Shown here in pieces: positions 7,185 through 24,703 of a DNA stretch of 37,887 nucleotides. A program made the position numbers and the translations under genes. The notes under the pieces are model-generated. The model was given only the letters and a program-made list of their open reading frames with translations. It had not been told where the DNA came from and searched no databases. Origin of the DNA: a virus; the IMG/VR virus record IMGVR_UViG_3300044960_000771, positions 1 to 37,887 of that record. One strand, given 5' to 3'. Position 1 is the first letter of the stretch. Every line of letters starts with the position of its first letter.

Positions 7185-7514
7185 ATGCAGTTCATCGATC
7201 TTTCCCCATCCTGGCGGCGCCTGCTGCGTCTGTTCCAGACGATCAACTTCGGACGCGTCGAGGAACTGGAAATCCGCAACGGCGAGCCCGTGTTCAGCCC
7301 GGAGCCGCGCGTCTTCCTCGATCTGAAACTCGATGCCGCCGATGGTCCGCGACCCGAATGCCGGCTCGACCGGTTCGAACTGCGGAGACAGGTCGAACGG
7401 TTTATCGAGCAGGTAGGCCGGTTGAAGGACGGCACGGTGGAACGCATCGAGGTGCGCCACGGCCTGCCCTTCCGGATGGTGATCGAGGCGATGCCGGCGG
7501 AGGCGGAGTCATGA
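7185..7514 (+). CDS. Hypothetical phage early protein
   Basis: A 109-residue protein with an N-terminal alternating hydrophobic/charged beta-like segment (INFGRVEELEIRNGEPVFSPEPRVFLDLKL) and a helical middle (RFELRRQVERFIEQVGRL). The end repeats the pattern of the start (VERIEVRHGLPF compared with VEELEIRNGEPVF), so it may be an internal duplication. A strong GGGGGAG lies 7 bases before the ATG. It overlaps the sigma-like gene in ATGA. No family is recognised; the spacing shows it belongs to the early operon. Confidence 0.65.
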   Translation: MQFIDLSPSWRRLLRLFQTINFGRVEELEIRNGEPVFSPEPRVFLDLKLDAADGPRPECRLDRFELRRQVERFIEQVGRLKDGTVERIEVRHGLPFRMVIEAMPAEAES

Positions 7515-8038
7515 GCGCCGCCGCGATCGATCCCTTTGTCCTCCGGCAGGCCGAGATCCGGGCCAGCCGGATTGTGGGCGCCAACGGCTACACGCCAGAT
7601 GATTGGGAGGACCTCCGTCAAGAGCTACTGCTTGACTATGTCCGCCGCCAGCCCAGGTTCGATCCCGCGCGCGGGGATCAGCGCGGTTTCGTCTTCGGAG
7701 TTCTTCGCAACCACGCCGCGAAACTCGCGAAAGCGGGCAACAGGGCAAGGGCCGTCAGCGAACTGACGGACGATGCGCCTGACCCAAGCATTTTCGCAAC
7801 TACACGGCTGGAGGCCGAACTGCACCTCCGCATCGATGTCCAAACGGTTCTTTCGCGCCTGCCCGATCATCTTCGTGTCCTCGCCGTTCAGTTAACGGAG
7901 ATGAGCCCGGGCGAGGTGTGCCGGGAATCGGGCAGATCGCGATCGTGCATCTACCGTTGGATCGCCGAACTCCGCCGCGCGTTCCTCTCAGCCGGGCTCA
8001 CTCCGGCCGCTCTGGATGGCCGTGGAGGTGCGCGGTGA
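7511..8038 (+). CDS. Small sigma-like factor
   Basis: A 175-residue protein with the two-domain plan of ECF-type sigma factors. Residues about 30-75 (DDWEDLRQELLLDYVRRQPRF, then GFVFGVLRNHAAKLAK) match region 2, which binds the -10 element and core polymerase. Residues about 107-157 (VLSRLPDHLRVLAVQL then EVCRESGRSRSCIYRWIAELRRAF) match region 4 with its helix-turn-helix. ATG 7511 overlaps the preceding stop (ATGA). It could redirect host RNA polymerase to phage promoters. Alternatively it may be a sigma-derived DNA-binding protein that no longer initiates transcription, since region 2 is short. No anti-sigma gene is adjacent. Confidence 0.75.
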   Translation: MSAAAIDPFVLRQAEIRASRIVGANGYTPDDWEDLRQELLLDYVRRQPRFDPARGDQRGFVFGVLRNHAAKLAKAGNRARAVSELTDDAPDPSIFATTRLEAELHLRIDVQTVLSRLPDHLRVLAVQLTEMSPGEVCRESGRSRSCIYRWIAELRRAFLSAGLTPAALDGRGGAR

Positions 8039-8982
8039 GTCGGCGACAAACAATTGTCGAGATGCCGTGCGACGAGATCCGCATCGGCGAACGCCACCGC
8101 AAGGATATGGGTGAGTTGGAGGTGCTCGCCGCCAGTATCTCTAAGGTGGGCCTTCTTCATCCGCCCGTGGTCACCAAGGACGGCGTGCTCGTCTGTGGGG
8201 AGCGCCGGTTCCGAGCCATTTGGGAGATTCTCGGCTGGAAGACGATCCCGGTGATCGTGTTGGAAGTGCCGAGCCTCCTCGAAGGAGAGTACGCCGAGAA
8301 CGAGATCCGCAAGGACTTCACGCCCTCCGAACGCGTGGCCATCGGCCAAGCGATCGAAGCGGAGATCGGCAAGCGCCAAGGACAACGAACCGACCTCGAA
8401 CCTGTGAAAGATCTTCCACAAGTCCCGCCCGGAACCAAGACGCGCGAGATTGCGGCCGAGAAGGCTGGCTTTGGCAACCCGAGGACCTATCAGCAGGCCA
8501 AGAAAGTTACCGAGGCCGGGACGCCCGAACTCGTCGCGGCGATGGACGCTGGCGAAATCTCGATTGACGCCGCCGCCGTCATCGCCCAAGAGCCGCCCAA
8601 CGCGCAGCGCGAGATCGTCCAGATGCCCGCCGCGGTGCGCCGCCAGATCGTGCGCCAACTACGCGAGGCCATCGAACTGCCTTCCACCGCCGAAGCGCGG
8701 CGCATCGCTCGCGAGACGGGCATGCTTGTGGCCGACCGCACGGGCCGGTACCGCTCGGGCCTCTCGGACGGGGAACGCAAGGCTCTCAAGGAAGACCTTG
8801 ACTCGATCTGGGCAGTGACGCGCGCCGTCCTAGCTCTGGCCGAGACACCGCTCGATCCGGTCGAACTCGCTTCGCGGCTTGAGTACTGGCACTGCCCGGG
8901 CATCCGGGCCAAATCGCCGGTCGCCCTCGACTGGCTCCACCGCTTTGGGGAGGCAATCCGTGACAAGACCCAGATTTCATGA
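8035..8982 (+). CDS. ParB-like nuclease/partition-domain protein
   Basis: A 315-residue ParB-family protein. Its GTG start at 8035 overlaps the preceding stop (GTGA) and has GGAGG 6 bases upstream. The N-terminal ParB/Srx-fold domain carries the GERRFRA motif (55-61) and the ENEIRKDFTPSE motif (88-99), the CTP-binding or nuclease-type signature of the family. A central helix-turn-helix-like part (about 140-200, with TREIAAEKAGFGNPRTYQQAKKV) follows, then a helical C-terminus. There is no ParA ATPase next to it, so a classical partition role is not supported. A role as a DNA-sliding regulator or in replication is more likely, but is inference. The twin palindromes at 6705 and 6812 are candidate targets. 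Confidence 0.85.
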   Translation: MSRRQTIVEMPCDEIRIGERHRKDMGELEVLAASISKVGLLHPPVVTKDGVLVCGERRFRAIWEILGWKTIPVIVLEVPSLLEGEYAENEIRKDFTPSERVAIGQAIEAEIGKRQGQRTDLEPVKDLPQVPPGTKTREIAAEKAGFGNPRTYQQAKKVTEAGTPELVAAMDAGEISIDAAAVIAQEPPNAQREIVQMPAAVRRQIVRQLREAIELPSTAEARRIARETGMLVADRTGRYRSGLSDGERKALKEDLDSIWAVTRAVLALAETPLDPVELASRLEYWHCPGIRAKSPVALDWLHRFGEAIRDKTQIS

Positions 8983-11986: not shown

Positions 11987-12422
11987 CGCGGCGCGGCCCA
12001 CCATTGTCATCGACTCGCGCGAAAAGGAACCCTACTCGTTCGATCCCCGGCTCATCGGCGCCGTGCGGCGGGCGCTCAAGGCCGGGGACTACTCCATCGC
12101 CGGGCTCGAGGACCAGGTGGCCGTGGAACGTAAGACACTCGATGATTTCGTTTCGACCGTGATCCACCGAAGGCGGCGCTTCCGGCAGGAGCTCGGCAAG
12201 CTCAGCCGGTACCGCGCCGCCTGCATAGTGGTCGAGGCCGAGCTTCTCGACGTGCTCGGCAAGCGCTATCGCGGCGAGGCCCGCCCCGAGGCGATCGTGG
12301 GCACGACGCTCTCAATTCTGCTCGATTACGGCGTGCCGGTCCTGTTCTGCGGCAACCGTCAGGCGGCGTGCCATTTCACTAGAGGCTTTCTGCTGGCGGC
12401 GTGGAAGAGGTGGGGACGATGA
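11973..12422 (+). CDS. ERCC4-domain nuclease
   Basis: A 149-residue single-domain nuclease of the XPF/ERCC4 fold. The catalytic core is complete: DSREK at 14-18 gives the first acidic pair, GDY at 38-40 follows, and ERKTLDD at 52-58 is the ERKxxxD catalytic motif. The enzyme should cut branched or single-strand/double-strand junction DNA, in keeping with a recombination module. The TTG start at 11973 lies inside DUF669 and has GGGAGG 12 bases upstream. The stop overlaps the helicase start in ATGA. It lacks the helicase and HhH domains of cellular XPF, as is usual in phages. Confidence 0.85.
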   Translation: MSRSDAARPTIVIDSREKEPYSFDPRLIGAVRRALKAGDYSIAGLEDQVAVERKTLDDFVSTVIHRRRRFRQELGKLSRYRAACIVVEAELLDVLGKRYRGEARPEAIVGTTLSILLDYGVPVLFCGNRQAACHFTRGFLLAAWKRWGR

Positions 12423-15400
12423 GGGATCAGCGCGAGTCGATCCGCGGCACGGTCGATGCGGTCTTCTACTCCGGCCCCACGTTCAGCGCGGGCCGCCTGG
12501 TGACGCCCGATGGCAAGGAGGTGAAGTTCGCAGGCAAAGTCTTTGTTCGCGAGCACGACGCCGTCAGACTTGAAGGCCGCTGGGTGACGCATCCCAAGTA
12601 CGGCCGCCAGTTCGAGGCCGAGTTCTTGGGGCATGACCTGGAACTCGATCCCGAGGGGCTTGCCCGCTTCCTCGCCAACCATCCCGACATCAAGGGTATC
12701 GGCCCGGCCAAGGCGAAATTGATCGCTGATCGATTCGGACGCGGCTTCGATGCGGCTATCCGCAACGAGCCTGAGTCGGTGGCGGCTGTGGCCAAAGCGC
12801 CCATCGAGACCATCGGCGAACTGCGCCGCATCTGGATCGCCAACCGTGATTTCAACCACGCGATGGCGCACCTGGCCGCTTACGGCCTGACGCATCACCA
12901 GGTGACGACACTCGTTGAGAAGTTCGGCAGCCAGGTGGTCGTCATCCTCGAACGCGATCCCTACGTGCTGATGCGCGAGGTCCCGGGCTTCGGCTTCAAG
13001 CGCGTCGACAAGATCGCCCGCAAGATGGGTACGCCTAAGGATCTGCCGTCGCGGATTCGCGCGGGGATTCAATATTGCGTGCTCGCGGCGCTCGATGACG
13101 GCGACTGCTGGGTTGAGTACGAGGATCTGCTCGACCGCGGCAACACGCTACTGGTGATGGACACGCTCGACAGCCGGGAGGTGATCGAGCGGCATCTGGA
13201 GGCGCTGATTGAGGAGGGCGTGCTGGTCTCGCAGGCCTTCGAACGCCTCGTGGTGGCCGATCCCGAGATCCACCGCATGGAAACGGAGCTGGCGGCGGTC
13301 TTCCGGGAATCGCGGCGGTGCGGACCGCGTGCAGTGACCACTCTCGATGCGCTGCTCGACGTCGAAGGCGGCGAGTTGACTCCCGAACAGCGGGAGGCCG
13401 TCAGGAACGCGCTCACCTTTCTCATTTCCTTGATGACTGGCGGCGCGGGCAGCGGCAAGACCTATGCGGTGTCGGCCATCACGACCATTGCAGAGAGGCT
13501 CGAGAAGAAAGTCGTACTTGCCGCTCCGACTGGCAAGGCCGCAAAACGCCTCGAAGAGGTCGTGGGCCATGAGGCGAGCACCATCCACCGGCTGCTCGGC
13601 TTCAATGGCCACAGCTACGCGCGGGATGCGCTGAATCCGATCGAGGCCGACATCCTCGTGGTGGATGAGTGCTTCGATTACAAGCAACCCATACTCACGG
13701 AGGACGGCTGGCGCTGCATCGGAAGTATCGTCAACAACGAAGCGCCGGTTCGCGTCTGGTCCCGGAATCCAGTGACCGGAGAACTGGAACTCAAGCCTAT
13801 CGTCCGGTGGCTGAAACGTAATGCACCTAAGGAGCTCATCCACCTTACCGCAGGACGATCAAACAGTCAGCGGGACGCCCGTTCGATCCTCTGCACTTGC
13901 GACCACAAGATCCTCACGCCCTATGGCTACCGGCGCGCGGGAGAGATACTGCCGGGTGAGGAAATCATAGTTCGTGGACCGGCATTCACTCCGCAGCAAA
14001 AATCGATCCTGATTGGCTCTCTGCTCGGGGATGGCTGCATGGGCAGGCGGAGAAGCGGCCACCCACAGGTCGTAATTACACACGGTCAGGCTCAGCTCGA
14101 ATATCTAACGTTCAAGCAGAAAGCCTTTGGTGCCCTGTCAAGCGCCTTGAGACAGGGGAAATCCGGCTACGGGGCGAAAACCGTCTGGCGTTTGACGCTG
14201 GCGACAACCGACGAAACCTACCAGATCGCCCGAGAAATGATTCAGTCCGGCAACCACGGCTCGGGGCGGCGGCGCTGGATCCCTACCGACCGTTTTCTGG
14301 AGTGGGTAGACGAACAAGCTCTTGCCATCTGGTACTTGGACAACGGGAGCCGCGCGACGCGCATCTCGGCTTCGGGTTCACAGACGTACTTTGCAAAACT
14401 TCACACCGAACGGTTCGGCCAAGCGGACAATTTACGCCTTGCCGGCTTTCTGAAAGCACGGTTCGGATTGGTAGCACAGGTGGCCCCAGACTCCCGAGGA
14501 AACTGGTTCCTACGCTTCAGCAAGGCCGAATCCGGGAAGTTGTTCGACATCATTACGCCCTTCGTCCCCGCCTGCATGGAATATAAGATCCCCGGACGAG
14601 GAACCTACGAGTATCTTCCGGCGATTGAACCACAAACCTGCGTGGCGCGGGTGCGGACCGTGGAGCGCTGTCGGCCCAGCAGCCGTTACGTTTTCGATAT
14701 CGAAGTCGAGGATCATCACAACTACGTCGCCGGCAACATCATCGTCTCCAATTGCTCCATGGTGGATGTCCCTCTGGCCTGGAGGCTGTTTCAGGCGGTC
14801 GACCTGACCAGGACCGCCGTGGTCCTGGTCGGCGATCACAACCAATTGCCGCCCGTCGGCCCTGGCAACCTACTGCGAGATCTGGTCAAGTCGCGGGCAG
14901 TCCCGACGACAATCTTGACCCGGATCATCCGTCAGGCAGGGGTGCTCAAGGAGAACTCGACCGCCATCCTCTCGGGCGAAGTGCGGCCCACCACGGAAGT
15001 CCAAAATGGCGCGCGCCGGCCCTGGTACGTCATCGACCGCTTCAGCGACCGCGAGGACGTGCGGCGGATGCTGCTCTTGCTCTTCGAAGAAGTCCTGGCC
15101 GAGCGTCTCGGCTACGACCTGCTGCGCGATGTGCAGGTGCTGACGCCGACGCACAAGGGCCCGCTCGGCACGGCCGAGTTGAACGTCGCGCTCCAGCGGC
15201 TCCTGCAAAAGAAACTGCGCGGCTTCGACGTGCCGGACGGCGCGCCCGGGCTCAGGCCTGTCTTCTACGCCGGCGACAAGGTCATCCAGACGCGGAACGA
15301 CTACGAACTGGGCGTCATGAACGGCGCAGTGGGCTACGTCGTTGAAGCCACCGCCAAGGGTGCGCTCACGGTCGAATTCGACGGCGCCGTGGTCGAGATC

Positions 15401-15679
15401 GAGCCCGGATCGGACGCGGCCAGCCGCCTTCAGCTTGCCTATGCCTGCTCGGTCCACAAGGTGCAGGGCTCGGAATTTCCCTGCGCCATCGTCGTCGCCC
15501 ACAAGTCGCACTCCTTCATGCACCACCGCAATCTCCTCTACACGGCGGTCACGCGCGCCAAGCAGTCCGTAATCATACTCGGCGACCGCTGGGGCATTGA
15601 GAACTGCGCGGCCAAGCGCCAGGTGGACCGGCGCCACACCTTCCTTTCCTTCCTGCTTCGACCGGAGGCACGCCCATGA
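12419..15679 (+). CDS. RecD2-like helicase interrupted by an intein
   Basis: The 1086-residue precursor is a superfamily 1B helicase with a 361-residue intein (residues 418-778), leaving a mature protein of about 725 residues. The N-terminus has an OB-like part and a helix-hairpin-helix (HPDIKGIGPAKAK near 88-100). Walker A is GGAGSGKT (341-348) and motif Ia is AAPTGKAAKR. Walker B reads VVDE (414-417), then the intein, then CSMVD. GDHNQLPPVGPG (motif III) and a C-terminal UvrD-like VHKVQGSEF...YTAVTRAKQ follow. The domain order fits RecD2, a 5'-3' DNA helicase. ATG 12419 overlaps the ERCC4 stop (ATGA). Function depends on splicing, because the insertion splits the active site. The gene probably unwinds DNA in phage replication or recombination. 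Confidence 0.9.
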   Translation: MRDQRESIRGTVDAVFYSGPTFSAGRLVTPDGKEVKFAGKVFVREHDAVRLEGRWVTHPKYGRQFEAEFLGHDLELDPEGLARFLANHPDIKGIGPAKAKLIADRFGRGFDAAIRNEPESVAAVAKAPIETIGELRRIWIANRDFNHAMAHLAAYGLTHHQVTTLVEKFGSQVVVILERDPYVLMREVPGFGFKRVDKIARKMGTPKDLPSRIRAGIQYCVLAALDDGDCWVEYEDLLDRGNTLLVMDTLDSREVIERHLEALIEEGVLVSQAFERLVVADPEIHRMETELAAVFRESRRCGPRAVTTLDALLDVEGGELTPEQREAVRNALTFLISLMTGGAGSGKTYAVSAITTIAERLEKKVVLAAPTGKAAKRLEEVVGHEASTIHRLLGFNGHSYARDALNPIEADILVVDECFDYKQPILTEDGWRCIGSIVNNEAPVRVWSRNPVTGELELKPIVRWLKRNAPKELIHLTAGRSNSQRDARSILCTCDHKILTPYGYRRAGEILPGEEIIVRGPAFTPQQKSILIGSLLGDGCMGRRRSGHPQVVITHGQAQLEYLTFKQKAFGALSSALRQGKSGYGAKTVWRLTLATTDETYQIAREMIQSGNHGSGRRRWIPTDRFLEWVDEQALAIWYLDNGSRATRISASGSQTYFAKLHTERFGQADNLRLAGFLKARFGLVAQVAPDSRGNWFLRFSKAESGKLFDIITPFVPACMEYKIPGRGTYEYLPAIEPQTCVARVRTVERCRPSSRYVFDIEVEDHHNYVAGNIIVSNCSMVDVPLAWRLFQAVDLTRTAVVLVGDHNQLPPVGPGNLLRDLVKSRAVPTTILTRIIRQAGVLKENSTAILSGEVRPTTEVQNGARRPWYVIDRFSDREDVRRMLLLLFEEVLAERLGYDLLRDVQVLTPTHKGPLGTAELNVALQRLLQKKLRGFDVPDGAPGLRPVFYAGDKVIQTRNDYELGVMNGAVGYVVEATAKGALTVEFDGAVVEIEPGSDAASRLQLAYACSVHKVQGSEFPCAIVVAHKSHSFMHHRNLLYTAVTRAKQSVIILGDRWGIENCAAKRQVDRRHTFLSFLLRPEARP
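13670..14752 (+). mobile_element. Intein with LAGLIDADG homing endonuclease
   Basis: A 361-codon in-frame insertion. It starts with Cys1 (CFDY), contains the N-terminal block A pattern (PILTEDG) and block B TCDH (76-79), and ends in RYVFDIEVEDHHNYVAGNIIVSN, with Cys at +1 of the extein. Two LAGLIDADG motifs are visible: ILIGSLLGDG (113-122) and LAIWYLDNGS (218-227), so it is probably an active homing endonuclease. Removing it restores VVDE-CSMVD, an intact Walker B. The penultimate residue is Ser instead of the usual His, which may change splicing efficiency. The insertion site at the catalytic Glu is a typical intein niche. Confidence 0.93.
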
Positions 15680-18408
15680 GCCCTTGCGTGGATGTCCATG
15701 CCTACTACCGCCAGATCACCGAGGTCGATATTGGCGGGATCGCCCGCGAGCTGCTCGGCGGCCGCATCGTCGAAGAGTCGCCGCGCACGCTGTTCTGCGA
15801 TTGCCCGAACCACAAAAGCCAGTCGCGCCGCTCGCTCCACGTCATGCTCGACAAGCAGGGCTGGTATTGCTTCGGCTGCGCGGTGGGCGGCGACGTGCTG
15901 CAACTGGTCGAGTTCGTCCGCTTCGGCCGAGTGACGCGCGGCCAGTCGGGGCAGATGCCGGAATCGCACCGCCAGGCGCGCGATTTTCTGGCCGCCCGCG
16001 CGGGCTTGCCGCCGCTGGCTCAGCTTGCCTCGAGTTCTCCAGAAGAAGCCGAGGCCGAACACCGCCTCACGCTGCGCGTACGCGAAGCGCTGACCGCGCT
16101 GGCCGAAATCTATCACCAGCGGCTCGTGAGCCATGCGGAAGTCTACTCGTGGTTCCGCGCCAAGTATGGCATCCGCGAGGAGACGATCGAGCGTTTGAAG
16201 ATCGGCTACGCCGAGGACGGCTCGCCCACTGCCGCGCGCCTGCTTATGGACGGGCCCGCCGCGTTCACGCCGCGCGAGCTGACAGCGACTTCCGCCTTCC
16301 GGCCCACGGCGCAGGATGGCATCGCGCCATTCTTCGACCGCCGCATCGTCTTTCCTTACTGGAGCCGCGGCCATGTCGTCTTCCTGATCGGCCGCCGAAC
16401 GCCGTGGACGCCCGATCAGCCTTGGGAGAAGTCGAAGTACAAGAAGCTGGCCGTCCGCAACGACCGCAACCACAGCCACGTCGCCGCCTGCATCCGCAAC
16501 GACGTGCTCTATAACGAGGATGTCTTGCTCACGGGACCCGAGCGCGTTGTCATCACCGAGGGTGTGACTGATTGCATCTCGCTCATGGAGCACGGCTTCG
16601 CGGCCGTCTCGCCCGTCACGGTCCAGATCCGCGAGGCGGATTGGGACCGGCTCGTCGCGAAACTCGCAGGCGTGAAGAGTGTCTACATCTGCCAGGACAA
16701 CGAGGTCTCCGAAGCCGGACTTCAAGGCGCAATGAAGACGGCCCGCCGGCTGGCCCGGCACGGCGTCGCCACGCGCGTGGCCGTTCTGCCGCTCGGCGAG
16801 AAACAGACGGCCGCGCGCGCCCAGCTCGCCGAGTTGCCAGAACACAGTCCGGAGGCAGACGCTCTGCGCGCCGATGCCAAGATCGACGTCAACGAGTACT
16901 TCGCCTCGGGTAAGACCGCCGCCGACTTCGAAGCGATCCTCGGAGCCGCGCAGACACCGCTCGAGATGGCGATTGGGAAGTTGCAGCCCAATGCGCAGGA
17001 CCTCGCGAAACTGCTCGACCCGATCCTGGCCGAGGTCCATCAACTGGATCCGATTGAGCAGCCGCGCTACCTGAAGCTCATTCAGGAGAAATGCGGCAAA
17101 GGCCGCCTGCCCATCTCGGCCCTGCGGCAGCAGATGAAGGTGGTGCGGATCGACGGAGCGCGTGGCGGCAAGGGCAAGCGGGCTGGCGCGCAGGCCTTGC
17201 GGGCCGTCAATGATAGTGCGGCCTCCTGGCGCAACGATCTTCTGCTGAACCTGAACGGCACGGTGAAGCCCGTGCTCGCCAACGCGATCACCGCGCTGCG
17301 CGGAGCACAGGAGTGGTCGGGTGCGCTCGCCTTCAACGAGTTCGCGAACTGCACCGTGTTGCGCAAGCCCGCGCCATGGATGAAGCCCAGTGCGGATGTC
17401 CACGAGGAATGGACCCCGAACCACGACGTGCTCGCCACCGAGTGGCTGCACCATCAGGGCATCTTCGTCTCGGTCGACGTGACCGGCCAGGCGATCGAAG
17501 CCGTCGCCCGGGAGCGCCCCTTCCACCCCGTGCGGACCTATCTCAAGGAACTCACCTGGGACGGCACGCCGCGCCTCGAAGGGTGGCTCTCGGAATATCT
17601 CGGCGTCGATCCCTCGCCTTATGCGGCAGCGGTCGGCTCTCGCTGGCTGATCTCGGCCGTGGCGCGCGTATTCGAGCCGGGCTCGAAGGCCGACTGCTGC
17701 CTGATCCTCGAAGGCGAACAGGGCATCCGCAAGTCAACCGCCCTGCGTCTTCTGGCCGAGCCTTGGTTCACGGACGAGATCGCCGACCTGGGCTCCAAGG
17801 ACGCGGCATTGCAGACCCGTGGCGTCTGGGTGATCGAGATCGCCGAACTGGATTCGATGTCGCGTTCCGAGATTGGCCGGATCAAGGCGTTCATGAGCCG
17901 CGCGGTCGACCGTTTCCGGCCGCCGTACGGCAAGCGCCTCATTACTTCTCCGCGCCAATGCGTCTTCGCCGGCAGCGTGAATCACGGGACATACCTGCGG
18001 GATGAGACGGGCGGGCGCCGCTTCTGGCCGGTCGAGTGCAAGGCCGCGGTGATCGACACGGATGGGCTGGCTATCATCCGGGATCAACTGTGGGCCGAGG
18101 CGACTTACCTTTACTTCGAAGGCAAACCGTGGTGGCTCGATTCGGTGGATCTCAACCGCGAGGCGGCCGAGGAACAGGCCGAACGCTACGAAGGCGATCC
18201 ATGGGATGAGTTGATCCTCAAGTGGGTCGAGGGGCGGGAGTCGGTGTCGATTCCGGAGATCCTCACGCAGTGCATCGAGAAGAAGACCGAGATGTGGACG
18301 CAGATGGACCGCAACCGGGTGGCGCGGTGCTTGAGAGCGCACGGGTGGAAGCAGTACAAGGCCAGAGAAGGTGAACGCCGCGAATGGCGGTACCGGCGCC
18401 TGTGCTAA
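15676..18408 (+). CDS. Primase-helicase (CHC2 + TOPRIM + VirE-type ATPase)
   Basis: A 910-residue fusion. The N-terminal zinc finger (CPNH at 43-46, then CFGC at 65-68) is the CHC2 type of DnaG-like primases. A TOPRIM-like domain follows, with VVITEGVTD (291-299) and the DNE acidic motif (341-343). The C-terminal part is a VirE (PF05272)-type ATPase: Walker A GEQGIRKST (680-688), Walker B VWVIEIAELD (717-726), then SEIGRIKAFMSRAVDRFRPPYG. The P-loop has Arg where the GKS/GKT loop usually has Gly. The protein could prime and unwind at the phage origin. The ATG at 15676 overlaps the helicase stop by 4 bases. The repeat array that starts at 18411 lies immediately after its stop, which fits an origin beside its initiator. 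Confidence 0.9.
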   Translation: MSPCVDVHAYYRQITEVDIGGIARELLGGRIVEESPRTLFCDCPNHKSQSRRSLHVMLDKQGWYCFGCAVGGDVLQLVEFVRFGRVTRGQSGQMPESHRQARDFLAARAGLPPLAQLASSSPEEAEAEHRLTLRVREALTALAEIYHQRLVSHAEVYSWFRAKYGIREETIERLKIGYAEDGSPTAARLLMDGPAAFTPRELTATSAFRPTAQDGIAPFFDRRIVFPYWSRGHVVFLIGRRTPWTPDQPWEKSKYKKLAVRNDRNHSHVAACIRNDVLYNEDVLLTGPERVVITEGVTDCISLMEHGFAAVSPVTVQIREADWDRLVAKLAGVKSVYICQDNEVSEAGLQGAMKTARRLARHGVATRVAVLPLGEKQTAARAQLAELPEHSPEADALRADAKIDVNEYFASGKTAADFEAILGAAQTPLEMAIGKLQPNAQDLAKLLDPILAEVHQLDPIEQPRYLKLIQEKCGKGRLPISALRQQMKVVRIDGARGGKGKRAGAQALRAVNDSAASWRNDLLLNLNGTVKPVLANAITALRGAQEWSGALAFNEFANCTVLRKPAPWMKPSADVHEEWTPNHDVLATEWLHHQGIFVSVDVTGQAIEAVARERPFHPVRTYLKELTWDGTPRLEGWLSEYLGVDPSPYAAAVGSRWLISAVARVFEPGSKADCCLILEGEQGIRKSTALRLLAEPWFTDEIADLGSKDAALQTRGVWVIEIAELDSMSRSEIGRIKAFMSRAVDRFRPPYGKRLITSPRQCVFAGSVNHGTYLRDETGGRRFWPVECKAAVIDTDGLAIIRDQLWAEATYLYFEGKPWWLDSVDLNREAAEEQAERYEGDPWDELILKWVEGRESVSIPEILTQCIEKKTEMWTQMDRNRVARCLRAHGWKQYKAREGERREWRYRRLC

Positions 18409-18410
18409 GT

Positions 18411-18713
18411 AGGTCCACGTCATGGCTTAGGTCCACGTGTGGTCCACGTCTAGGTCCACGCATGCAGGCGCTGGAATCGGTTGACCAGAAACGACTTAGC
18501 GCTTAGGTCCACGTGGTCCACGTCTGCTGCTGTTAATTACTTTACGAAAACACGCACACAAAGCCAGAGAAAAAAAGTGAATGCGTTTTTTTTATAGAAA
18601 GAGAGAGAACACCCATGGTCCCCATGGACCCCGTGGACCTAAATCGGTAAGCCACATTTCATCAATAACTTGCAGCGAAGCCGTCTCCAGCAGAGACGTG
18701 GACCTGGTCCACG
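18411..18713. repeat. GGTCCACG repeat array, candidate replication origin
   Basis: Nine exact copies of the 8-mer GGTCCACG or its complement CGTGGACC. Six direct copies lie at 18412, 18430, 18441, 18453, 18506 and 18515. Two inverted copies lie at 18632 and 18697, and one more direct copy at 18706. Several are followed by T or TC, extending the unit. Between the clusters is an AT-rich tract (about 18528-18600) with long A and T runs in an otherwise GC-rich element. Repeats around an AT-rich region next to a primase-helicase gene are the classic layout of an iteron origin. A dense operator cluster is the alternative. Confidence 0.75.
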
Positions 18714-18718
18714 TCTCT
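18692..18718. repeat. 27-base palindrome at the right end of the repeat array
   Basis: Two exact 13-base arms (AGAGACGTGGACC and its complement) around a single T at 18705, built from one inverted and one direct GGTCCACG unit. It is the strongest dyad in the array and could be the key binding site or a cruciform-forming element. A possible GTG start for the next gene (18698) lies inside it, so the gene may be under control of whatever binds here. Confidence 0.8.
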
Positions 18719-19417
18719 TCGTGCACCTCTCTGTTCGTCTCGACCAGCCTGGACACTTGGGCCACCGGTCAGCCGGAAATCTTCGCCCGCGACGTCCAGA
18801 TCAACGATACGGCCTACCGGCGGCTGGATCCGGAATACTACGCCTGGCTCCGCTCGCGCATGAACCTGGCCAAGCTGGCCGCCGGCGCGGGCCGGCTCAG
18901 CCAGGACGCGTTCAATGATCTGTGTGAGAAGTTCAACGCCGTGCACGAGTGGGCCGTCGCCCGCTTCGGCGAGGACTCGCTGCGTGAGGCCGTTCGCAAT
19001 CTCGATACGCGCAGCTACGCGCCGCCCGTCGCGGAACCAGACCAGCCGGTTCGTCCGGCGCGCGCCGTTGAGAACATCGCCGCGGAGGCTGTGGCCTTGG
19101 TTGATGCGATCAGGGATCAGGCGCTCGCGCTGGGCTGGACGGAACAGAGCCTTTACGGGACCGGCGGCGCCACGCGCGCGGTGTGCGCGAAAGCGTGTGG
19201 GCTCGCGAACCTGCTCAGAGCCAACGACCGCATCGGCGAGGTCACGAGTCAGTCGATTGAAATTCTCCGTGCCAGCGGCGCGCGGCAACGTTTCTATAAC
19301 CTCCTTGCTGATCAGCCCTGGATTCGAACCCTGGCGAGAAAAACATGCGGGCATGGTGGGGAAAAATCAGTGTCCCGGCCAGACACATGCGCCACCGGCG
19401 GCGAAGATAGCCCGTGA
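18698..19417 (+). CDS. Hypothetical phage protein next to the repeat array
   Basis: A helical, charged protein of about 239 residues. The convincing part starts with the DTAYRRLDPEYYAWLRSRM region. No family is recognised. The start is uncertain: an ATG at 18581 would translate through the AT-rich tract and repeats and looks non-coding there. GTG 18698 is used here, though it has no clear ribosome binding site. ATG 18860 would drop part of the convincing region. Location beside a candidate origin makes an origin-related function worth testing, but the sequence does not show one. Helices with EKFNAVHEWAVARFGEDSLREAV are followed by a Cys-containing C-terminus. Confidence 0.55.
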   Translation: MDLVHVSSCTSLFVSTSLDTWATGQPEIFARDVQINDTAYRRLDPEYYAWLRSRMNLAKLAAGAGRLSQDAFNDLCEKFNAVHEWAVARFGEDSLREAVRNLDTRSYAPPVAEPDQPVRPARAVENIAAEAVALVDAIRDQALALGWTEQSLYGTGGATRAVCAKACGLANLLRANDRIGEVTSQSIEILRASGARQRFYNLLADQPWIRTLARKTCGHGGEKSVSRPDTCATGGEDSP

Positions 19418-19675
19418 GCAGTGGACATTCATGCCGCAACGAATCCCGCGCCGGTTCGAGATGAGATCACCGCGGCGGGAAGCCGTGAGAGAAATCCTCG
19501 CCGCGCGCGGACAATTCAGACGCGGGGCGAGTATATAGTACATGGAAACTCGGCACGGCCGGCAGACCGCCAAGCGGACGTCGCGTGGGGGAATCCAGAA
19601 ATCAGTTGGAACGAGCGCCGGGACGCTCGTGAATCTCTTTCCCGCAGATTCGGTGCTCTCTGTGTGTCTTCCCTC

Positions 19676-20175: not shown

Positions 20176-20535
20176 ATGGCTGATTCTCCCTCCCTCCAGC
20201 CGCGATCGTTGGGCAAGATTGCGGTCCCGACGCCAGGAACGCCTGTCCGGGTGACCTCCGATGCCTCGATCCGGGCCCACCGGATCCGGTTCGCCGTCGT
20301 CATCGGCGAGACGGGACGCGTGTTCCTTGGCATGGCGGGCATGAACAAGGCCACCGGGGCGGGTGTGGTGAAGGAGTTCTGGCCCACGGGCGCGGGCGGT
20401 GGCGTGGCCGACGAGTTGGTGCTCGAATCGGCTACCGGAGAACTGCGGCCGGCGGATTACTACGTCGACGCCAACACGGCGGGCGAGGGGGTGATCGTCG
20501 CCTACTGGGTCTGGGTTCCGAGCTATGCCAGTTGA
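20176..20535 (+). CDS. Hypothetical phage protein
   Basis: A 119-residue protein with beta-rich, Gly- and Val-rich composition (VRVTSDASIRAHRIRFAVVIGETGRVFLGMAGMN). There is no Cys, signal peptide or membrane helix. Its 3' end overlaps the first methyltransferase gene by 11 bases. I do not recognise a family; the small beta-rich fold would fit a virion decoration or accessory protein, but this is speculative. It lies in the region between the candidate origin and the packaging genes. Confidence 0.6.
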   Translation: MADSPSLQPRSLGKIAVPTPGTPVRVTSDASIRAHRIRFAVVIGETGRVFLGMAGMNKATGAGVVKEFWPTGAGGGVADELVLESATGELRPADYYVDANTAGEGVIVAYWVWVPSYAS

Positions 20536-21985
20536 TCGCGTGACGCCGGCGATGGCGAGGCGGATCGAGTTGTGGCCCCTGGAACGCCTTGTGCCCTACC
20601 AGCGCAACCCGAGGACGCACTCCGAGGAGCAGGTGACGCAGATCGCGGCGTCGATCGCCGAGTTCGGCTTCTGCAATCCGATCCTTGTCGACTCGCGGGA
20701 CGGCATCATCGCCGGACACGGCCGGCTGCTGGCGGCAAAGAAACTGGGCTTCGCCGAGGTGCCGGTGATCGTGTTGGATCATCTGGACGAGACCCAGCGC
20801 CGCGCCTACTTGCTGGCCGACAACCGGCTCTCGGAACTCGCCGGGTGGGACAGCGAGATGCTGGCGCGCGAGTTGAAGGAGCTGGCTGACGCCGGATTCG
20901 ACGCGACGCTGGCCGGGTTCGACTCGAAGGAGATCGACGACTTCCTGGCGTCGCTCGAGCGCGGCGCGGAGGCTGAAGCCGAGGAAGTTGCCGATACAGT
21001 TCCAGAGCCGCCAGTCAAGGCGATCACTCACCCCGGCGACCTCTGGCTGATCGGGCCGCACCGGCTGATCTGCGGCGACTGCCGCGATCGCGGCGTGATC
21101 GCGCGGTTGTTCGATGGAGCGAAGGCGAACGTCGTCATCACGTCGCCGCCTTACGCCACGCAGCGCCAGTACGATCCATCAAGCGGCTTCGAGCCGGTGC
21201 CGCCGGAGAAGTACGTCGCCTGGTTCAAGGACGTCGCCGCGGCCATCGAATCGGTGCTGGCGTCGGACGGCTCCTACTTCCTCAACATCAAAGCCCACGC
21301 CGAGGAGGGCGAGCGCCACACCTATGTGATGGACCTCGTGCTGGCACACAGGCGGCAGTGGGGCTGGCGGTTCGTCGACGAGTTCTGCTGGCGCAAGACC
21401 GACGACGGCGTGCCGGGCGGCTGGAACAATCGCTTCAAGAACGCCTGGGAGCCGATCTATCATTTCTCGCGCGAGCGCAAGATCAAGTTCCGGCCGCGCG
21501 AGGTAGCGCACTGGTCCGACGACTGCTTCGACTACTCGCCCGGCAATCCGAAGTCGACCTCGGGTAGCGGGTTGCTCGGCACCGGGCCGCGTGGCGCGGC
21601 GGCCGACAAAGGCAAGAACCATGCGGCCTGGCAGACCACACGCCGCAACGCCAACGACCTCGAAGGGCGACACGGCGGCCTGGCGCGCCCGTCGAATGTG
21701 ATCGAAGCCAAGACCGAGTCCTCGCAGGGGAATCATTCGGCCCCGTTTCCGCGCGCGATCCCGGAGTTCTTCATCAAAGCGTTCTCGGACGCGGGCGATG
21801 TGATCTTCGATCCGTTCTCGGGCAGCGGCACGACACTGGTCGCCGCCGGGCTGCTCGACCGGGCAGGCTTCGGCGTCGAGATCAGCCCGGCCTACTGCGA
21901 CGTGATCCTGCGCCGAATGCAGGAGACCTTGAAGCTCACGCCCGTGCATGCGGTGACGGGCAAACCATTTCAATCCAACACGTGA
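20525..21985 (+). CDS. ParB-DNA methyltransferase fusion (TSPPY type)
   Basis: A 486-residue fusion. Residues about 13-140 form a ParB-like domain (LVPYQRNPRTHSEEQ, GIIAGHGRLLAAKKLG, VIVLDHLDETQRRAYLLADN). Residues about 165-470 are a permuted beta-class amino-methyltransferase: TSPPY at 206-210 is the catalytic motif IV and DPFSGSGTT at 429-437 the SAM-binding motif I. TSPPY is most often N4-cytosine, sometimes N6-adenine. The enzyme would modify phage DNA, for protection from restriction or for regulation. ATG 20525 overlaps the preceding gene; ATG 20552 is an alternative. A second fusion of the same architecture lies at 23315. Confidence 0.9.
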   Translation: MPVDRVTPAMARRIELWPLERLVPYQRNPRTHSEEQVTQIAASIAEFGFCNPILVDSRDGIIAGHGRLLAAKKLGFAEVPVIVLDHLDETQRRAYLLADNRLSELAGWDSEMLARELKELADAGFDATLAGFDSKEIDDFLASLERGAEAEAEEVADTVPEPPVKAITHPGDLWLIGPHRLICGDCRDRGVIARLFDGAKANVVITSPPYATQRQYDPSSGFEPVPPEKYVAWFKDVAAAIESVLASDGSYFLNIKAHAEEGERHTYVMDLVLAHRRQWGWRFVDEFCWRKTDDGVPGGWNNRFKNAWEPIYHFSRERKIKFRPREVAHWSDDCFDYSPGNPKSTSGSGLLGTGPRGAAADKGKNHAAWQTTRRNANDLEGRHGGLARPSNVIEAKTESSQGNHSAPFPRAIPEFFIKAFSDAGDVIFDPFSGSGTTLVAAGLLDRAGFGVEISPAYCDVILRRMQETLKLTPVHAVTGKPFQSNT

Positions 21986-22782: not shown

Positions 22783-23315
22783 AGCCTGCGGCCCCACACG
22801 GCCCGCTAGAATGGCGCCCAATTCCAGGATTCCCCTCCTACGAGGCGTCTGAGCGCGGCGACATCCGAAGCGCGGTTGCGTTCCGCCATTACCCAGCCGG
22901 AATGGTCCTACGGCAACGAAGGAATCGCTTCGGCTATCTGACCGTCAGGCTTTCGGAACGCGGCATCGCTCGTGATGTCTTCGTCCATCGACTGGTCGCG
23001 CTTGCTTTCACCGGCCCTCAACCGGCTCCGCAGCATGAAGTGGCCCACCGCGACGGCGACAAGGCGAACAATCATTGGCGCAATCCGCGGTGGGCGACGA
23101 AGTCCGAGAACTGCAAGGAGAAGCGCATTCTTGGAGAGCTACCGGATATTCGCGGTGAGAAGCATCCCCAGGCACGACTTACTGAGGCGCTGGTGCTCGC
23201 CATGCGTGAGCGGAGACGACAAGGGGCATTCTTTAGGGTGATCGCGGCGGAGTTCGGCGTCCCGAAACTCACGGCCTACGATGCCATCAAGGGGATCACT
23301 TGGAGCCACATATAA
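22779..23315 (+). CDS. NUMOD4-HNH homing-type endonuclease
   Basis: A 178-residue endonuclease. It opens with a NUMOD4 motif (EWRPIPGFPSYEASERGDIRS, 11-31), and the HNH core follows, with VHRLVALAF at 69-77, VAHRDGDKANN at 88-98 and NPRWAT at 102-107. A C-terminal helix-turn-helix-like end (FRVIAAEFGVPKLTAYDAIKG) could read the target. Such genes are free-standing homing endonucleases that insert into phage genomes. The GTG start overlaps the upstream stop (GTGA), and its stop overlaps the second methyltransferase start (TAATG), so it is tightly set into the operon. Confidence 0.85.
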   Translation: MKPAAPHGPLEWRPIPGFPSYEASERGDIRSAVAFRHYPAGMVLRQRRNRFGYLTVRLSERGIARDVFVHRLVALAFTGPQPAPQHEVAHRDGDKANNHWRNPRWATKSENCKEKRILGELPDIRGEKHPQARLTEALVLAMRERRRQGAFFRVIAAEFGVPKLTAYDAIKGITWSHI

Positions 23316-24703
23316 TGGCCGACAACCCTCGAATCGCCACCAACTTCGAATTGTGGCAGGTGGATCGACTGATCCCCTATGCGAGGAATCCCCGCACGCA
23401 TACTGATGAGCAAGTTGCTCAACTGGCCGCGAGTATCATGGAATTCGGGTTTGCAAATCCGCTTCTTGTCGGCAGCGACGGGGTGGTGATCGCAGGCCAT
23501 GCGCGCCTTCAAGCTGCGCGGAAGCTGGGCTTAAGCGACGTTCCGGTCATCGTACTCGATCACCTGACCGAGGCGCAGCGGCGGGCACTGGTCATCGCCG
23601 ACAACCAACTCGCCCTCACAGGCACGGGATGGGATGAAGAGTTGCTGCGCGGCTTGCTCGTTGATCTGCGGCAGGACGAGTTCAACCTGGACCTGCTCGG
23701 GTTCTCCGACGAGGAGATCGCCGGTTGGCTGACGCAGGATCCCGACGCGCCGCAGGAAGGCCTCACCGAGGAAGACGCGGTTCCCGAGCCGCTCGAGGAA
23801 CCGGTTACTCGCCGCGGCGATTTGTGGATTCTGGGCAACCACCGGCTGCTGTGCGGGGATTCGGCGAGCAACGAAGATGTGAAGCGCCTGGTGGAAGGCG
23901 CGCCGGTCGACCTGGTCAACACCGATCCGCCTTACAATGTGCGCGTCGAGCCGCGCTCGAACAACGCCATCGCCGCCGGGCTTTCGTCGTTTGCGGGCTT
24001 GCAGCATCATCAGAGCTTCGACGTTCACCGGGGCGCATCCAAGGCCAAGGCCACCACGAAGAAGATGCGGCCGAAGGACCGCGCGCTGGCCAACGATTTC
24101 ATGAAGGACGCCGACTACGATGTCCTTCTGCGCCAATGGTTCGGCAACATCGCGGCGGCGCTCAAGCCCGGCGGCGCCTTCTACCTTTGGGGCGGCTACG
24201 CCAACTGCGCCAACTACCCTCCGGCGCTGGCCGAATGCGGCTTGTACTTCTCGCAGGCGATCATCTGGGTCAAGAACATGCCCGTGCTCACGCGCAAGGA
24301 CTTTATGGGAGCGCATGAGTGGTGTTTCTATGGTTGGCGTGAAGGGGCGGCGCACTGGTTCAACCCGGACTACAACAACGTGCGGGACGTCTGGGAAGTG
24401 GCGAAAGTGCCTCCGCAATCGATGATTCACTTGACCGAGAAGCCGGTGGAGCTGGCTGCCCGGGCGCTGACCTATTCGTCGAAGGCGGGCGAGACGGTGC
24501 TGGATCTGTTCGGAGGGTCGGGTTCGACGCTGATCGCCTGCGAGAAGCTCGGCCGCCGGGCGAGGCTGATGGAGATCGATCCGCCTTACTGTGACGTGAT
24601 TATCCAGCGGTGGCAGCAATACGCCGGAAGGACAGCGACGCTGGAAGGCGATGGGCGCAGCTTCGATGAGATCCGTGGCGAGCGAATCCAGAATCGAGCG
24701 TGA
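23315..24703 (+). CDS. ParB-DNA methyltransferase fusion (DPPY type)
   Basis: A 462-residue paralog of the fusion at 20525. The N-terminal ParB-like domain (LIPYARNPRTHTDEQ, VIAGHARLQAARKLG, VIVLDHLTEAQRRALVIADN) is clearly related to that of the first copy. The methyltransferase half has DPPY (204-207) as motif IV and DLFGGSGST (about 397-405) as motif I. DPPY predicts an N6-adenine methyltransferase, unlike TSPPY of the first. ATG 23315 shares one base with the HNH stop (TAATG). An in-frame TTG at 23300 is less likely. The two genes may protect the phage against different restriction systems, which is inference. Confidence 0.9.
   Translation: MADNPRIATNFELWQVDRLIPYARNPRTHTDEQVAQLAASIMEFGFANPLLVGSDGVVIAGHARLQAARKLGLSDVPVIVLDHLTEAQRRALVIADNQLALTGTGWDEELLRGLLVDLRQDEFNLDLLGFSDEEIAGWLTQDPDAPQEGLTEEDAVPEPLEEPVTRRGDLWILGNHRLLCGDSASNEDVKRLVEGAPVDLVNTDPPYNVRVEPRSNNAIAAGLSSFAGLQHHQSFDVHRGASKAKATTKKMRPKDRALANDFMKDADYDVLLRQWFGNIAAALKPGGAFYLWGGYANCANYPPALAECGLYFSQAIIWVKNMPVLTRKDFMGAHEWCFYGWREGAAHWFNPDYNNVRDVWEVAKVPPQSMIHLTEKPVELAARALTYSSKAGETVLDLFGGSGSTLIACEKLGRRARLMEIDPPYCDVIIQRWQQYAGRTATLEGDGRSFDEIRGERIQNRA

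Follow-up and report, generated by a model that had tools for sequence, protein, structure and literature searches.

The closest described systems couple a replication initiator to an origin made of short repeats. The C-terminal domain of the SaPI Rep protein is reported to act on an iteron origin located directly downstream (PMC7581432), while in the origins of E. coli PICIs an AT-rich region lies between two sets of iterons, and the rep-ori unit drives plasmid replication (PMC6092414). The SCCmec initiator helicase Cch2 has a C-terminal domain that, in isolation, binds repeats located in the intergenic region after its gene (PMC7581432). In the RepA-ori system of the Vibrio cholerae PLE, the initiator has a DNA-binding domain that varies together with the iterons of the origin and has been exchanged repeatedly (PMC8263062).

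Here we examined a stretch of 37,887 nucleotides (the window), which is an IMG/VR virus record in its own right. Because it carries genes for an integrase, terminase large subunit, portal, major head and minor tail proteins, we classify it as a temperate tailed phage rather than a satellite; this structural gene set and the integrase ruled out a PICI satellite as the identity of the whole element. Close relatives reside on contigs labelled Bryobacterales, Terriglobia and other Acidobacteriota, from which we infer the host group of the window phage, and the family was found in 32 of 257 genomes belonging to the order of one relative's host. The window additionally encodes a RecD2-type helicase (12401-15679) with a probable intein bearing a LAGLIDADG endonuclease domain (residues ~430-780), two proteins that each join a ParB N-terminal-like domain to a DNA methyltransferase (20525-21985 and 23300-24703), and a possible phage sigma factor with a weak sigma-70 match (7358-8038).

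The original prediction described nine exact 8-mers on both sides of an AT-rich tract, directly after a primase-helicase gene, and each of these elements was confirmed (Table 1). Exact copies of GGTCCACG occur six times on the + strand to the left of the tract and three times to its right (18632 and 18697 on the - strand, 18706 on the + strand), with one-mismatch copies at 18623-18630 (-) and 18720-18727 (-). The first copy begins 3 bases past the stop codon of the primase-helicase gene. In total, the 37.9 kb window contains 11 exact copies, compared to ~2 expected by chance (100 dinucleotide shuffles: mean 1.98, maximum 7), and a Poisson estimate for at least nine copies within 308 bp is ~2e-22. 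A scan of Rfam and of promoter and terminator models gave no match that accounts for the array, and a DNA search of a phage collection left the array unmatched, the sole match being a ParB/methyltransferase gene.

Table 1. Features of the repeat array and its neighbouring genes (positions in the window).
Feature	Coordinates	Strand	Description
Primase-helicase, probable initiator	15676..18408	+	910 aa; CHC2 zinc finger, DNAG_N, Toprim, VapE-like AAA+ helicase, C-terminal winged helix (Pfam/PHROG)
Predicted winged-helix domain	18196..18405	+	Residues 841-910; AlphaFold2 and co-variation
Left iteron block	18411..18523	+	4 direct copies (18412, 18430, 18441, 18453) and a tandem pair 9 bp apart (18506, 18515); plan shared with relatives
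AT-rich tract, probable melting site	18524..18616		Highest A+T 93 bp of the window
Right iteron block	18617..18639	-	Inverted pair CATGGACC (18623) and CGTGGACC (18632)
27-base palindrome	18692..18718		Two convergent iterons (18697 -, 18706 +); perfect, 13 bp + 1 + 13 bp
Next gene, conserved	18698..19417	+	Likely start codon within palindrome

The AT-rich tract is 63% A+T within a window of 64% G+C and overlaps the only 93-bp stretches of the window that are this AT-rich. It contains a TTTTTTTATAGAAAGAGAGAGAA motif that recurs in relatives and, as judged by eye, is kept across iteron classes. The 27-base palindrome that had been noted at the end of the array is present and perfect, but it does not hold as a general feature, since it is formed by two convergent iterons and is specific to the window's own clade. 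The gene that follows probably starts with GTG in the window and with ATG at the equivalent place in three relatives (L004, L005 and L007); its product had no match in Pfam, PHROG or NCBIfam. GC skew, suggested earlier as a check, does shift across the array site (-0.005 before, +0.051 after), but the change is small and we do not take it as evidence.

To place the array in a wider context, we compared it with related loci. A whole-protein search returned 72 viral loci, 20 of which share the C-terminus of the primase-helicase. Lack of conservation in homologous phages had been named as the finding that would speak against an origin; instead, the array lies at exactly the same place in 20 of 20 relatives with a homologous C-terminus and is present in about half of the wider VapE-helicase family. 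What is kept is the place and the layout, with 3-4 direct copies, a tandem pair 8-9 bp apart, ~100 bp of AT-rich sequence, an inverted tandem pair and then scattered copies. The same 8-mer had been suggested as a search target in related phages, but the repeat varies by phage (GGTCCACG, GGTGCACG/GGTTCACG, GGTGCGCG, GTGTTCCAGT, TGGTTCCAGT, GTGTCCCAGT, GCGTCCCAGT or GTGTACCAGT).

Among loci with a helicase/CTD profile match, a repeat score of at least 7 downstream of the stop codon was found for 51% of 165 VapE-helicase representatives, which include relatives down to ~30% identity, compared to 0.9% of 4878 control windows drawn from the same loci. In 105 loci of these 165 representatives, the post-stop window outscored all other windows of its locus. 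Of six cultured phages in which distant relatives occur, four carry clear arrays, namely Marinobacter PS3, Rhodobacter RcAqua, Staphylococcus phiSP15-1 and Paenibacillus ApiWellbeing; the array of Streptococcus phage Javan100 is doubtful, and some relatives, for example L149 and Pseudomonas phage Haddon, have no clear array after the helicase. In most of the loci L020-L073, similarity is largely confined to the N-terminal primase part, and the helicase half is a different one; two loci with the N-terminal part in common (L036 and L037) have AGATCCCC(A) arrays downstream. In a further five loci (L158, L161, L168, L177 and L193), TGACGCA-type iterons seem to enter the 3' end of the helicase gene, and the protein ends HDA-like.

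The helicase part of the window protein is readily assigned, with a Pfam match to the VapE-like domain (E 7e-78) and a match to SaPI PriRep1 (PDB 7pds) in profile comparison (E 2e-57). When the helicase and C-terminal domain (CTD) were modelled together with AlphaFold2, the helicase core was poorly predicted and only the CTD was usable. Its last 70 residues are predicted to form helices and a beta-hairpin in the manner of a winged helix (domain pLDDT ~82-91), with a helix at ~876-888 followed by a beta-hairpin wing at ~891-908. Fold matches of this domain were weak (best E ~0.05) and comprised the winged-helix repressors BlaI, on DNA, and MecI, as well as PriRep1 (7pds).

Changes in iteron sequence track the last ~20 residues of the protein, which correspond to the predicted wing. 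This is illustrated by natural swaps between otherwise similar loci. Between L010 and L006, only 13 of the 400 aligned helicase/CTD positions are changed, five of them in the wing, and the iterons are changed on both sides of the origin around a nearly identical AT-rich tract. L074 matches L007 and L008 over 40-odd residues before the wing, with 1-2 changes, and has a different wing and GGTGCGCG repeats. Two loci of a single genome, L278 and L282, stay identical through the recognition helix and have different wings and different arrays.

In 29 sequences with iterons that align without gaps, column 895 alone of 400 aligned columns fully determines the central base of the iteron, the next best column reaching 0.77. 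The central base is C where this position holds K or R, T where it holds N, G (or T) where it holds Y and A where it holds H; the corresponding residue of the window protein is K and lies within the predicted wing. With the central base left free, the copy counts were 87 of 88 C for K/R, 92 of 98 T for N, 28 G and 14 T of 42 for Y, and 8 of 9 A for H. The Y895 loci (L003, L006, L009 and L139) have mostly G, with T in about 1/3-1/2 of copies, while the other classes are nearly uniform. In addition, the second base of the 10-mer varies with residue 897, being G where the residue is R, and T or C where the residue is G.

On a helicase tree built without the domain, at least nine base changes and at least nine residue-class changes (K and R merged) can be counted. 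Only two independent pairs fall on well-supported branches, a number at which a sign test cannot reach significance. Base and residue share ancestry, and linked recombination of the gene end and the array would give the same pattern, so the separate changes are fewer than the sequences; such linked exchange does not compete with recognition as an explanation. The residue-base relationship was noticed first and a prediction was written down before new loci were fetched: all five new wings agreed, each with R and C, in a draw that mostly re-found known loci. A blind ungapped alignment of all iterons was rejected, as it anchors on TGT and reverses the window's and L003-type iterons, and we consequently claim the relationship only for the gap-free 10-mer class. 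The pairing of Q with A and the TGTTCCCAG class depend on CCAG anchoring, and at other iteron lengths the reading likewise depends on the anchor. Within these bounds, we favour, with some reservation, a code in VapE-type initiators whereby residue 895 would set the central base (K/R-C, N-T, Y-G/T, H-A and perhaps Q-A) and residues 896-897 the base three before it, such that few wing changes could switch origin specificity, with the copies on both sides following.

The conserved place and layout, the domain make-up of the adjacent protein and the co-variation support the earlier proposal of a candidate replication origin. We consider it very probable that the array serves as the phage origin and that the C-terminal winged helix of the primase-helicase binds GGTCCACG. 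The winged helix would bind the iterons to the left and right of the AT-rich tract. The VapE AAA+ parts would then assemble there, probably forming two hexamers of opposite orientation, and would melt the tract and begin unwinding; the N-terminal DnaG-type primase would then prime synthesis. Iteron choice would be set mainly by the wing, with residue 895 as the predicted reader of the base that follows GGT (K with C).

Since the gene 18698-19417 probably starts within the palindrome, the repeats could instead act mainly as an operator through which the primase-helicase or another regulator controls transcription of that gene; indeed, an initiator bound at the palindrome would probably repress it too. 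As the main function, however, this is very unlikely: some nine copies flanking an AT-rich tract are more than an operator requires, the array follows other VapE helicases regardless of the next gene, and a search of 17900-19500 with an E. coli-type consensus found no promoter-like site. The original prediction also put forward, as possible binders of an origin-like array, a ParB-like protein (7918-8982), a kind of protein that generally binds DNA repeats, and the product of 18698-19417. We named the primase-helicase as the candidate binder because iteron sequence co-varies with its C-terminal domain. Iteron identity tracks the helicase wing and changes between near-identical helicases, in a comparison that measured co-variation for the helicase alone, and VapE helicases are followed by the array even where their surrounding genes are unrelated. 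Binding by either of the other proteins is thus highly improbable, and the sequence comparisons point to the predicted winged helix of the adjacent primase-helicase as the repeat reader.

Short repeat arrays also serve in recombination, packaging or partition, but this array is tied to a replication helicase gene and not to terminase or recombinase genes, making such a site the least probable of the readings considered. A classical iteron plasmid origin of the Rep_3/RepA kind was rejected, with start-to-start spacings of 18, 11, 12, 53 and 9 that are neither even nor in helical phase; no Rep_3/RepA initiator was found among the ORFs scanned around the array.

These results name a likely initiator and origin for a phage family of little-studied soil bacteria, and provide a usable rule for finding phage origins, namely a short-repeat origin directly after a VapE helicase. 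If the wing code is true, sequence could be used to predict origin specificity across an entire class of phage and satellite replicons. Frequent switching of specificity would also raise the question of why it occurs, with competition among prophages that share a host, or nucleases that target origins, such as Odn, as possible reasons.

Compared with described systems, the domain order of the primase-helicase fits the P4 alpha type, in which primase, helicase and origin binding are combined in one protein that acts with ori/crr and short iterons (general knowledge and PMC6092414); the likeness noted here is one of domain order, and P4, unlike the window phage, is a satellite. SCCmec Cch2 resembles the predicted layout as an initiator helicase with downstream iterons (AAGTG), but it is a D5-type helicase with three iterons and a separate primase-polymerase. 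The PLE initiator is unrelated (RepA_N), and its iterons are semi-palindromic and ~30 bp long. Swapping of domain and origin is already known from PLE, whereas a residue-level wing-to-iteron code is possibly new: none was met in the literature searched, which covered few subscription papers and not the original ones on the SaPI origin, and is not proof of novelty. Overall, the system fits the known SaPI/PICI Rep-ori kind, with a homologous VapE helicase, an origin directly 3' of the initiator gene and two iteron sets flanking an AT-rich tract. Where the C-terminal domain of SaPI and PICI initiators is reported to recognise the origin (PMC7581432, PMC6092414), the window protein has a predicted winged helix with a weak fold match to 7pds and BlaI and co-variation with its repeats. 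Unlike in SaPIs and PICIs, the array resides in a full temperate tailed phage, has its own iteron sequence and follows a helicase with a DnaG-type primase fused in front.
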